Source of the DNA: Zunongwangia sp. ESRF-bin46
GTDB taxonomy: Bacteria; Bacteroidota; Bacteroidia; Flavobacteriales; Flavobacteriaceae
DNA length: 64,000 nucleotides
Direction: 5' to 3'
NCBI GenBank assembly: GCA_002631855.1
Contig: NTLF01000019.1
Coordinates: 248,001-312,000, forward strand
A program made the translations under genes and the position numbers. Each line of letters begins with the position of its first letter. The stretch's first letter is position 1. The notes below the pieces were generated by a model that ran no database searches, was not told the origin of the DNA, and worked only from the letters and a program-made list of their open reading frames with translations. This document shows positions 27,446 through 60,219 of the stretch, in pieces.

Positions 27446-28468
27446 ATGAACACCGAAATTACCGAACAAGTAAAAAAACTACTTGCCTCACCACAAAAAA
27501 TTGTTGTTGTTGGCCATAAAAACCCCGACGGAGATGCGATTGGTTCTTGCTTAGGTTTATCTTTTTTCTTAAACAGATTAGGCCATAAAGCAGACGTGAT
27601 TATGCCCAATGATTTTCCTGATTTTCTTAAATGGCTTCCCGGCTGTGATGATATTATTATACACGATAAGGACACAGATAAAAGCATAGAGGCTATAAAC
27701 AACGCAAGTTTAATCTTTACCTTAGATTTTAATGCGTTAAACCGCACTGGAAACATGGAACAGTTTCTGGAAGACTGCGATGCCAAATTTATTATGATTG
27801 ACCATCATCAAGAACCTGATGACTATGCACTTGTAACTTATAGCGATCCTTCCATGAGTTCTACAAGCGAAATGGTCTATCATTTTATAGATGCTATGGA
27901 CGAGTTAGGAGCTCTTTGTTTAGAAGTTTCTACACATTTATACACCGGAATTATGACCGATACCGGTTCGTTTCGATTTCCATCTACCACTGCCAAAACG
28001 CATCGTGTAATTGCTCATTTGATAGAAGTGGGTGCTAATAACTCGCAAATACATCAAAACATTTATGATGTAAACAGCCCTGACCGTATGAAGTTATTGG
28101 GGGTAGCCTTAAAAAATTTGAACATTTTGCCAGACTACAATACGGCATACATTACACTTTCTCAAAAAGAGCTAGACAAACACAACTTTAAAAAAGGCGA
28201 TACCGAAGGATTTGTAAATTATGCACTATCCATAAAAGGAGTAAAATTTGCCGTTATATTTATTGAAAATAAGCAAGATAAAATTATAAAGATGTCTTTA
28301 CGAAGTAAAGGTGATTTTTCGGTAAATACATTAGCTCGCGAACATTACAACGGTGGCGGACATACAAATGCAGCTGGTGGTAGAAGTACGCTTTCCTTAT
28401 CTAAAACCATTAGTGAATTTATTAGTATATTGTCTCAATATAAAATTGAACTTACAGATGCTTCATAA
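27446..28468 (+). CDS. nrnA: DHH/DHHA1 family phosphoesterase (bifunctional oligoribonuclease/PAP phosphatase NrnA-like)
   Basis: GHKNPDGDAIGSCLGL, DHH motif MIDHHQEPDDYA, GGGHTNAAGG. Confidence 0.88.
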   Translation: MNTEITEQVKKLLASPQKIVVVGHKNPDGDAIGSCLGLSFFLNRLGHKADVIMPNDFPDFLKWLPGCDDIIIHDKDTDKSIEAINNASLIFTLDFNALNRTGNMEQFLEDCDAKFIMIDHHQEPDDYALVTYSDPSMSSTSEMVYHFIDAMDELGALCLEVSTHLYTGIMTDTGSFRFPSTTAKTHRVIAHLIEVGANNSQIHQNIYDVNSPDRMKLLGVALKNLNILPDYNTAYITLSQKELDKHNFKKGDTEGFVNYALSIKGVKFAVIFIENKQDKIIKMSLRSKGDFSVNTLAREHYNGGGHTNAAGGRSTLSLSKTISEFISILSQYKIELTDAS

Positions 28469-29012
28469 ATTAGCTTCTTTATTTATTATTTTAATTGCAA
28501 TTATTTCTTGTAAAGGGCCAGAAGCCCGAAGACCAGTTCAACAATCTTCCGGTACTTTTATACAAGAATCTGCACAACGCAACAAAGCGTTATATGATGA
28601 AGAGAAAGAACACATCCAAAAAATAATTGATGCCGATACTACAAAGGACTATATCTCATCAGACACCGGTTTTTGGTATTATTACAATATAAAAGATAGT
28701 ATTGCTTCGCCTAAACCTGATTATGGAGATGAAATCACTTTTACATACAATGTTAAGGAGTTAAATGGGAAAACAATTCTTTCAAAAGAAGAAACCGGAT
28801 TACAGCATTATAAAGTAGACCAGACCAATCAAGATTTAATTTCTGGTATTCGAGATGGAATAAAACTTATGCAAGTAGGTGAAACGGTAACCTTTATATT
28901 TCCATCCTATAAAGCATTTGGATATTATGGTATAGAAAATAAACTAGGAACCAACATTCCTATTAAAAGTACAGTAACCTTAAAAACAATCAAACAAAAC
29001 CAAGAAAATTAA
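28458..29012 (+). CDS. gldI: gliding motility-associated lipoprotein peptidyl-prolyl isomerase GldI
   Basis: lipobox IAIISC; FKBP domain; overlaps end of the DHH gene; start corrected from 28353. Confidence 0.9.
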   Translation: MLHKLASLFIILIAIISCKGPEARRPVQQSSGTFIQESAQRNKALYDEEKEHIQKIIDADTTKDYISSDTGFWYYYNIKDSIASPKPDYGDEITFTYNVKELNGKTILSKEETGLQHYKVDQTNQDLISGIRDGIKLMQVGETVTFIFPSYKAFGYYGIENKLGTNIPIKSTVTLKTIKQNQEN

Positions 29013-29020
29013 AAGTAACC

Positions 29021-30127
29021 ATGAAAAAAATCACGCTATTATTTTTATTAATATCATTAACTTTTGTAGCCTGTAAAAGTAAATATCCCGATTTAAAAGA
29101 TGGTGTTTATGCAGAATTTGTGACCAATAAGGGAACCTTTGTTGCAAAATTACACAACGAACAAACACCTTTAACCGTTGCCAATTTTGTTTCTTTAGCA
29201 GAAGGTACTAATGGTATGGTAGATTCTATCTATAAAGGAAAAAAATTCTATAATGGATTAACATTTCACCGTATAATCAAAGACTTTATGATTCAAGGTG
29301 GAGACCCAGAAGGTACCGGTCAAGGGAACCCTGGTTACCGTTTTCCTGATGAAATTGTAGATTCATTAAAACATGACAAAAAAGGGATTTTGTCTATGGC
29401 CAACTCTGGTCCTGCTACTAACGGAAGCCAATTTTTCATCACATTAAAACCAACCCCATGGTTAGACGGTCGTCATACTGTTTTTGGTGAAATTGTAAAA
29501 GGGCAAGAAGTAGTAGATTCCATTGGTAATGTGGAAACCACTAAACCCGGTGATAAGCCAACAGACTCCATCTTTATGAAAGAAGTAAATATCATTAATA
29601 AAGGCAATGCTAAAGTATCTCACTTTACAGAGCAAATGGAAGAGATTGAGCGTAAAAAGAGAGAGAAAGAAGAGCGTATTGCTAAAGTAGCCAAAGAGAA
29701 AGCACTGGAGTTTGACAAGCTTCGCGAAGAAGCAGAAGAACTTCCTTCTGGAATTAAAATTTATTATAACAATAAAGGTGAAGGTGAAAAACCTAAAGAA
29801 GGTAGTAAAGTATTAATGAACTATGCCGGCTATTTTGATGACGGTCGTTTATTTGATTCTAATATCCTAGAGGTTTCAGAACAATACGAAAATGTGGATG
29901 AAGCCCGTAAAGCGGCTCAACAATACAAACCTGTTGAAACACAATATAGCACTGAAGCTCGATTGGTTCCAGGCTTTAGAGAAGGTTTACTACAATTAAA
30001 TGTAGGTGATAAAGCTACGATATTTATTCCATCGCACTTAGGGTATGGACAACGAGGCTACCCACCGTTAATTCCTGGTAACGCCGATTTAATTTTTGAA
30101 TTGGAATTAGTAGATGTTGTAGAATAA
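29021..30127 (+). CDS. dual-domain PPIase: cyclophilin-type followed by FKBP-type, lipoprotein
   Basis: cyclophilin motifs FHRIIKDFMIQGGDPEGTGQGNPGY, ANSGPATNGSQFFITL; C-term FKBP VLMNYAGYFDDGRLFDSN...GYGQRGYPPLIPGNADLIFELELV. Confidence 0.93.
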   Translation: MKKITLLFLLISLTFVACKSKYPDLKDGVYAEFVTNKGTFVAKLHNEQTPLTVANFVSLAEGTNGMVDSIYKGKKFYNGLTFHRIIKDFMIQGGDPEGTGQGNPGYRFPDEIVDSLKHDKKGILSMANSGPATNGSQFFITLKPTPWLDGRHTVFGEIVKGQEVVDSIGNVETTKPGDKPTDSIFMKEVNIINKGNAKVSHFTEQMEEIERKKREKEERIAKVAKEKALEFDKLREEAEELPSGIKIYYNNKGEGEKPKEGSKVLMNYAGYFDDGRLFDSNILEVSEQYENVDEARKAAQQYKPVETQYSTEARLVPGFREGLLQLNVGDKATIFIPSHLGYGQRGYPPLIPGNADLIFELELVDVVE

Positions 30128-59482: not shown

Positions 59483-59525
59483 GATAATAGAACGCTTCGC
59501 TTTTAGGTGCGAATTGTCTACGATT

Positions 59526-60038
59526 ATGAAAAACATTTTACTAATCATAATATTTTGTTCATTTAGCGGGCTTTTCGCTCAAGAAAAAGTCGGACTTAAA
59601 GAAATTTATGTGGAAAATGATTTGGCGTATAAAGTTTCAAACGACCAATTATTTTCTGGACAAGCGCAAAAAGTTCGTAGAAACGGACATTTAGTTTACG
59701 AAGAGTATTATGAAAACGGAATTCCAATCAAATCAATCCTCTACTACAATGGAACGGAAAAACCGAAACCAGTTGAATTGATTGAGTTTTATGACAAAAC
59801 ATTTGATAAGAAAAAAGTAACTCGATACGGATTATCAAAACCAACGATTGAATATAAATATTACGCTCAAAACGGAAATAAAACTCTGATTGAAGAATAT
59901 GAAAATGACAAGCTTACTTATCGTTGCGAATATCAGAATGGCAAAAAGCACGGAATTGAATTCTGCTTTGATGATGACGGGAAAGAACTGAAAATTGAAT
60001 ATCGGAACGGCAAAAAGATAACGCAGAAAAAACTGTAG
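59526..60038 (+). CDS. YwqK/MORN-like secreted protein, cassette-like context
   Basis: MKNILLIIIFCSFSGLFAQ signal; repeated YxxNGxxxxIEEYENDKLTYRCEYQNGKKHGIEF; start at ATG 59526 rather than TTG 59514. Confidence 0.8.
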   Translation: MKNILLIIIFCSFSGLFAQEKVGLKEIYVENDLAYKVSNDQLFSGQAQKVRRNGHLVYEEYYENGIPIKSILYYNGTEKPKPVELIEFYDKTFDKKKVTRYGLSKPTIEYKYYAQNGNKTLIEEYENDKLTYRCEYQNGKKHGIEFCFDDDGKELKIEYRNGKKITQKKL

Positions 60039-60103
60039 ACAACAATGTATAACCGCAAAAGCAGAAAGGTTTGTGTATATTTATTCCATAACTGCGGTTA
60101 TAC
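60039..60103. repeat. attC-like stem-loop immediately after the stop codon
   Basis: GTATAACCGCA (60047-60057) / TGCGGTTATAC (60093-60103), 35-nt spacer, preceded by ACAAC. Confidence 0.5.
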
Positions 60104-60219
60104 GCAAATGATGATAGACTTGAGAAGAATTAAAAAATATACTATTACATAATTTTAAAGTTGGTACAAAACCGTAACAAAGCAATCAGTTTCTCGTCTT
60201 ACAAGAAAACCGTCTATCT

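Follow-up and report, generated by a model that had tools for sequence, protein, structure and literature searches.

Question raised by the locus

Between smpB and a DUF5686 gene, a small accessory gene is followed, with no intervening nucleotide, by a stem-loop. Does this stem-loop mark the 3′ end of a mobile gene cassette, as the attC sites of integrons do, or does it neighbor the gene by chance? The locus lies in a 64,000-nucleotide stretch of Zunongwangia sp. ESRF-bin46 (the window; its genome is G000 below). Directly 3′ of the TAG stop codon we read ACAACAAT, arm GTATAACCGCA, 35 nt, and arm TGCGGTTATAC; the positions given in the first-pass annotation for the stop codon, the two perfect 11-nt arms, and the 35-nt loop all hold exactly (Table 1). 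The flanking genes also bear the names given there, SmpB upstream (PF01668, 192 bits) and DUF5686 downstream (903 bits), and the window is, as claimed, free of an integrase; the same contig does encode a recombinase, at a distance of about 303 kb (G000:C2:3859-5034). One claim has to be corrected: GTATAAC/GTTATAC, which had been taken for the terminal boxes, form the inner (L-type) stem, and the true R boxes, NNNNNNNAAC/GTTNNNNNNN, lie at opposite ends of the cassette.

Table 1. Features of the cassette and its site in the window
Feature	Position	Strand	Basis
Complete gene cassette (mobile unit), 597 bp	59514..60110	+	predicted from end complementarity
Cassette 5′ end: TTGTCTACG plus the A of the conserved A·C mismatch (R′ half of its own site)	59514..59523	+	
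Cassette gene, 170 aa, signal-peptide-like start, weak MORN_2 repeats	59526..60038	+	
R″ box TGTAGAC-AAC, including the stop TAG	60034..60043	+	pairs with 59514-59522 of the same cassette
Stop codon TAG of the cassette gene	60036-60038	+	sequence
Unpaired central spacer, left side (AAT, A-rich)	60044..60046	+	conserved in ~60 G006 sites
Inner stem, left arm GTATAACCGCA, L″-type	60047..60057	+	perfect 11-bp inverted repeat
Terminal loop (variable terminal structure), 35 nt	60058..60092	+	
Inner stem, right arm TGCGGTTATAC, L′-type	60093..60103	+	perfect 11-bp inverted repeat
Right spacer GCAAATG (consensus GAGACCG), crossover after 60110	60104..60110	+	aligned to array copies

As an isolated inverted repeat, the stem-loop is unremarkable and weak. 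Perfect inverted repeats with arms of 11 bp or more and loops of at most 60 nt number 11 in the window, compared with about 2.0 expected from first-order Markov shuffles, and the single-strand fold of the stem-loop has a z score of about −2.3 to −2.8. An Rfam scan of the window gave no match. A mere transcription terminator or dispersed palindromic repeat, with incidental linkage to the gene, would account for a stem-loop just after a stop codon, and many of the window's inverted repeats are terminator-like, but the T-tract that would follow the stem is missing. We judge the stem-loop to be real because it recurs, and not on account of the inverted repeat by itself.

The site recurs throughout the genome and the family

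The left end of the site (AACAATGTATAACCG, at most one mismatch) occurs 21 times in its own genome, clustered on a small number of contigs. Most other copies are about 126 nt long and lie just 3′ of the stop codons of unrelated small genes; these longer copies read NNNNNNNAAC-AAT-GTATAACCG...CGGTTATAC-GAGACC-GTTNNNNNNN, and their inner arms are mostly separated by about 100 nt, compared with 35 nt in the window copy. In the window copy, the variable heptamer 5′ of the AAC (60041–60043) shares nucleotides with the stop codon. The right-hand CCG of this copy has decayed to ATG, with the cassette's right edge at 60110, and the corresponding spacer in the G002 copy is GCGAACG. Lacking CCG|TT at its right edge, the window copy may be inactive.

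To census the family we used a degenerate pattern of one length class (the main one), with the pattern read backward as the control. It matched in 133 of 301 Flavobacteriaceae genomes, representing 116 of 237 genera, while the backward pattern gave 0 matches in the same 301 genomes. The element thus recurs throughout its own genome and across the family, a point on which the annotation had let its reading depend. Phage, plasmid, and IMG/VR viral collections contained no match to the site consensus and so give no evidence of phages or plasmids carrying this type of site, and no published sequence match to the repeat was found in the PMC open literature. A second, unrelated short repeat (~40 nt plus ~55 nt) has many copies in G000 and its congeners, including at L048:11930-12010 and in the G006 array.

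Cassette ends are matched within a unit

Each unit obeys a simple rule: the heptamer that follows its starting GTT is reverse-complementary to the heptamer preceding AAC at the 3′ end of that same unit, and these heptamers differ between neighboring units. Complementarity was scored over 7 nt; position 8 is a conserved mismatch. Across array regions of the window's genome and its relatives, perfect 7/7 complementarity was reached by 39 of 60 pairs taken from the same cassette, compared with 2 of 79 taken from the same site and 1.3% of the other pairs. For the G006 array, the same-cassette complementarity sum was 223 of 245, compared with a maximum of 142 in 20,000 permutations. When the 3′ end meets its own start, as in the circular form, the outer R stem of 55 G006 cassettes is 85 to 100% Watson–Crick paired, whereas pairing at the variable positions is only 22 to 69% when the 3′ end meets the start of the next cassette, as in the array form. 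Beyond the outer stem comes an A·C mismatch in 50 of these 55 cassettes and then three more pairs. A test that makes no use of the consensus gave 71 complementary pairs in 298 kb downstream of 80 recombinases versus 17 in reversed sequence. Upstream of the recombinases the same test gave 12 pairs in 647 kb versus 18 in reversed sequence, and we rejected the existence of upstream arrays.

The window cassette follows the rule, in that TTGTCTAC at its 5′ end is the reverse complement of GTAGACAA at its 3′ end, and it bears the family signature, an A as the eighth nucleotide after GTT. Elsewhere in the window (27511-29401), a lone GTTGGCCATA...TATGGCCAAC pair passes the 7-nt complementarity test without the A·C signature; it is probably due to chance.

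Related genomes retain the empty site

We found that smpB adjoins the DUF5686 gene without an insert in three genomes of the same genus (G001, G003, and G004); the insert is also missing from G005 and G006. Gene and stem-loop are both present in G000 and in G002, which carries the same insert at 94%. They are jointly present or jointly absent between smpB and the DUF5686 gene, the pattern that the annotation had proposed looking for. Of 1050 junctions tested, none aligned without gaps to the G003 empty site as well as 59513|60111 (20/27; runner-up 17/27), which is exactly the pair predicted by the cassette rule. Homologues of the window gene from other genera (G061, G017, and G007; 41–46% identity) belong to cassettes too: they are located either where a cassette begins or between two cassette ends, and their heptamers differ. 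Together, the recurrence of the site and the empty site in relatives support the annotation's proposal of an integron-like, single-gene cassette inserted at this position. Two further off-array sites of G000, compared with congeners, yielded no second clean empty site; their cassettes recur in other contexts.

Could each cassette instead be a transposon- or MITE-like element in its own right, bounded by terminal inverted repeats and mobilized by an unrelated transposase? Imperfect inverted ends on each unit and dispersed copies would fit such elements, but the ends are hypervariable between units and matched within a unit, no target-site duplication was found at 59513|60111 relative to the empty site of G003, the units have no transposase in common, and the arrays described below run head to tail in one orientation right after a recombinase. 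We consider this origin very improbable.

In G002 the cassette site is broken after GACAACAA at a contig break (end of L064, start of L199), and each side continues into new sequence, which looks like the insertion of a further element into the hairpin.

Arrays follow the recombinase from an attI-like junction

The complete genome G006 carries about 60 sites in a 56-kb array (1247.6-1303.5 kb), directly downstream of a 397-aa tyrosine recombinase and on the same strand. Cassettes start at G|TT. Of 31 loci in which the first cassette could be delimited, 29 have a junction at G|TT between 31 and 313 nt past the recombinase stop; the loci come from Flavobacteriia, Cytophagia, Bacteroidales, and Sphingobacteriia and from one Spirochaetota MAG. 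From its position and sequence, this junction is a candidate attI, and we call it attI-like. A sense ORF is present in 32 of the 35 G006 cassettes examined, with its stop typically ~15 nt before the end of AAC. These arrays, the exact cassette edges, and the joint presence or absence of gene and element also bear on the terminator or palindromic-repeat reading of the stem-loop: the empty site and the array data refute it, and we give it almost no credence.

Recombinases of this family were found in 198 of 301 sampled Flavobacteriaceae genomes, about two thirds. Over these 301 genomes, 109 have both recombinase and sites, 89 the recombinase without sites, 24 sites without the recombinase, and 79 neither (Fisher p = 1.1e-7); the 24 genomes with sites but no recombinase at the cut-off, and the 89 with the reverse, count against the integron-like reading, although the pattern used for the sites is narrow and the repeats cause breaks in assemblies. 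At least three sites occur in 48 genomes with a recombinase versus 2 without.

Cassettes have also moved and been copied as exact units. Species G005 and G006 share a 604-bp cassette at 100% identity, bounded by CCG|TT edges, while the smpB of each is only ~82% identical to the smpB of the window. Duplicated cassettes with the same CCG|TT edges were found in Arenibacter (777 bp, 100%) and within G006 (865 bp, 99.8%). Cargo is mostly without known function, with Barstar, HEPN, GIY-YIG, TPR, and MORN_2 as singletons.

Two side observations concern the start of arrays. The first cassette after the G000 recombinase (L040:1995-3737) encodes a DNA C-5 cytosine methylase (PF00145, 328 bits) and a second ORF without a Pfam match, possibly a partner nuclease; the cassette is perhaps a restriction–modification system in cassette form. 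In the attI-like regions (L118, L120, L122, and G027), the junction often comes right after a perfect palindrome, for example AAACACACTAGTGTGTTT, which is perhaps a recombinase binding core.

The recombinase is closest to XerA in its catalytic domain, with a HARP-like N-terminal domain

The G000 recombinase gene (C2:3859-5034) lies next to an array and encodes a tyrosine recombinase catalytic domain (PF00589, 130 bits) whose residues R228, K253, H317, R320, H343, and Y352 are invariant in 56 homologues. Its best solved relative is XerA (5hxy, 224 bits), and no counterpart of VchIntIA residues 182-245, the I2 insertion, was found in it. The host's own Xer (~300 aa) has no N-terminal domain and belongs to a branch apart from this family, and the G000 recombinase falls in a different clade from that of its congener G006. 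Xer recombinases act on dif in chromosome resolution and are not associated with cassette arrays. The family shares with XerA/XerC/XerD a catalytic domain nearest to XerA and the absence of I2, but differs from the host Xer in its N-terminal domain and its branch.

These recombinases have an N-terminal extension of ~95 residues, predicted to fold as bbabba. Pfam HARP (PF07443) matches L180 above the cut-off (29.2 versus 25 bits, E 6.8e-7) and L148, L131, L132, L182, L152, and L175 below it, and the two best PDB fold matches of the domain (Foldseek) are to the HARP substrate-recognition domain of SMARCAL1 (E 0.22). In the G000 protein itself, HARP identity is a weak first-pass assignment from the structural match. 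The bbabba domain with its Pfam and Foldseek matches is what the two systems share; the SMARCAL1 copy belongs to a eukaryotic annealing helicase, and that of the Bacteroidota system is fused to a recombinase. ORFs of 460–615 aa (L132, L134, L152, L182, L190, and L141) apparently have at least two HARP-like N-terminal units in tandem.

Comparison with integrons

For comparison we used the integron attC features of AAC/GTT boxes, a hairpin R stem, an asymmetric spacer, an L stem, a variable tip, and a G beside the R′ box (PMC2727003). Like integrons such as the Vibrio cholerae superintegron, the Bacteroidota system has a tyrosine recombinase, an adjacent attI-like site, and an array of small, sense-oriented cassettes; its sites share the AAC/GTT boxes, the G|TT junction, the R stem, an asymmetric A-rich/GC-rich spacer, the L stem, a variable tip, and the G beside the R′ box. 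Measured against RYYYAAC/GTTRRRY, the sites have AAC/GTT, the stems, and the asymmetric spacer, and their boxes are hypervariable beyond AAC/GTT; no extrahelical G was identified in the hairpin. In integrons it is the single-stranded bottom strand of attC that recombines with attI; in the Bacteroidota system, folding was better for the bottom strand than for the top strand (z −6.6 versus −4.9). The R stem is longer and hypervariable (GTT+7, the conserved A·C mismatch, and ~3 more bp), the recombinase gene is directed toward the array and encodes a protein without the I2 insertion but with one or two HARP-like domains at its N terminus, and sites also occur singly around the chromosome.

Is this, then, a true integron, with a divergent IntI whose insertion was lost or reduced and with ordinary attC sites? 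The shared logic just described speaks for it, as do the 202 bits given by TIGR02249 (IntI), the NCBI name of a neighboring model that related proteins carry (NF040815, "site-specific tyrosine recombinase/integron integrase"), and the integrase co-directional with its array that is known in Treponema (PMC3607928). Against this, 202 bits is short of the cut-off of 265, the I2 residues are unmatched, the closest structure is XerA and not IntI, and the IntI compared lack the extra N-terminal domain. In a first-pass tree, the two IntI sampled group on a branch of their own (SH-aLRT 99), although with so few the tree is weak on depth. An integron definition given in PMC9668308, where it cites Messier and Roy, requires the IntI-specific additional domain; by that definition the system is not an integron because 0 of the 60 genomes searched have an IntI above the TIGR02249 cut-off. 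We regard the true-integron reading as unlikely. The Treponema denticola-type integrons, set beside the Bacteroidota system by their description, are reported as IntI with attC showing a protruding G (PMC3607928).

Proposed mechanism and significance

We conclude with high confidence that the stem-loop is an attC-like site at the 3′ end of a mobile gene cassette belonging to an integron-like system of Bacteroidota. The composition of that system is, we believe, very probably a tyrosine recombinase, an attI-like site 31–313 nt past its stop, and a co-directional array of mostly single-gene cassettes. The sequences directly show the G|TT boundaries, within-cassette end matching, attI-like first junction, and array architecture, together with the duplication and transfer of exact cassettes and the site without an insert in relatives. 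Judged by its sequences, the system works like an integron.

In our model, the recombinase would excise a cassette in circular form, and circularization would bring its two 7-nt ends together to complete the hairpin: a 10-bp outer R stem, the A·C mismatch, ~3 bp, the asymmetric A-rich/GC-rich spacer, the inner L stem, and the variable tip. G|TT would then be the point at which the recombinase joins the folded strand to its partner, which would be attI, a further site, or, on rare occasions, a target away from any array. The insertion of the window cassette between smpB and the DUF5686 gene would be of this last, off-array kind, and its right edge has since decayed. More speculatively, the N-terminal HARP-like domain or domains may recognize the hairpin instead of the I2 helix; we propose them as hairpin readers because the recombinase is without the I2 helix with which IntI grips folded single-stranded attC.

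A wider claim, for which we see about even chances, is that this is a second, independently evolved integron system, in which an Xer-like recombinase reads hairpins through N-terminal HARP-type domains and not I2, and which spans Bacteroidota and other phyla and is missed by finders that require IntI. The I2 helix is held to have enabled single-strand cassette recombination (PMC7790495); its standing as the innovation behind this reaction would come into question, and HARP-type recognition would become a testable alternative route. The IntegronFinder 2.0 survey of 2022 reported a complete integron in Bacteroidetes only in Salinibacter ruber (PMC9024848). The system matters because integrons are reported as nearly absent from Bacteroidetes, yet its recombinases and sites are this frequent among Flavobacteriaceae genomes, and it would enlarge the known pool of mobile genes by a large reservoir that has gone unseen. 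We found no prior description in the PMC open literature, a search outside which subscription papers and preprints fall; the system is apparently widespread in Bacteroidota and undescribed.

Recombinases of the same family also occur in Ca. Undinarchaeales, Nitrospirae, Halonatronum (Bacillota), and Spirochaetota (L175, L148, L166, and L180). Beyond Bacteroidota, the Bacteroidota-type cassette signature is borne by one Spirochaetota MAG (L180) and, less clearly, by L148.
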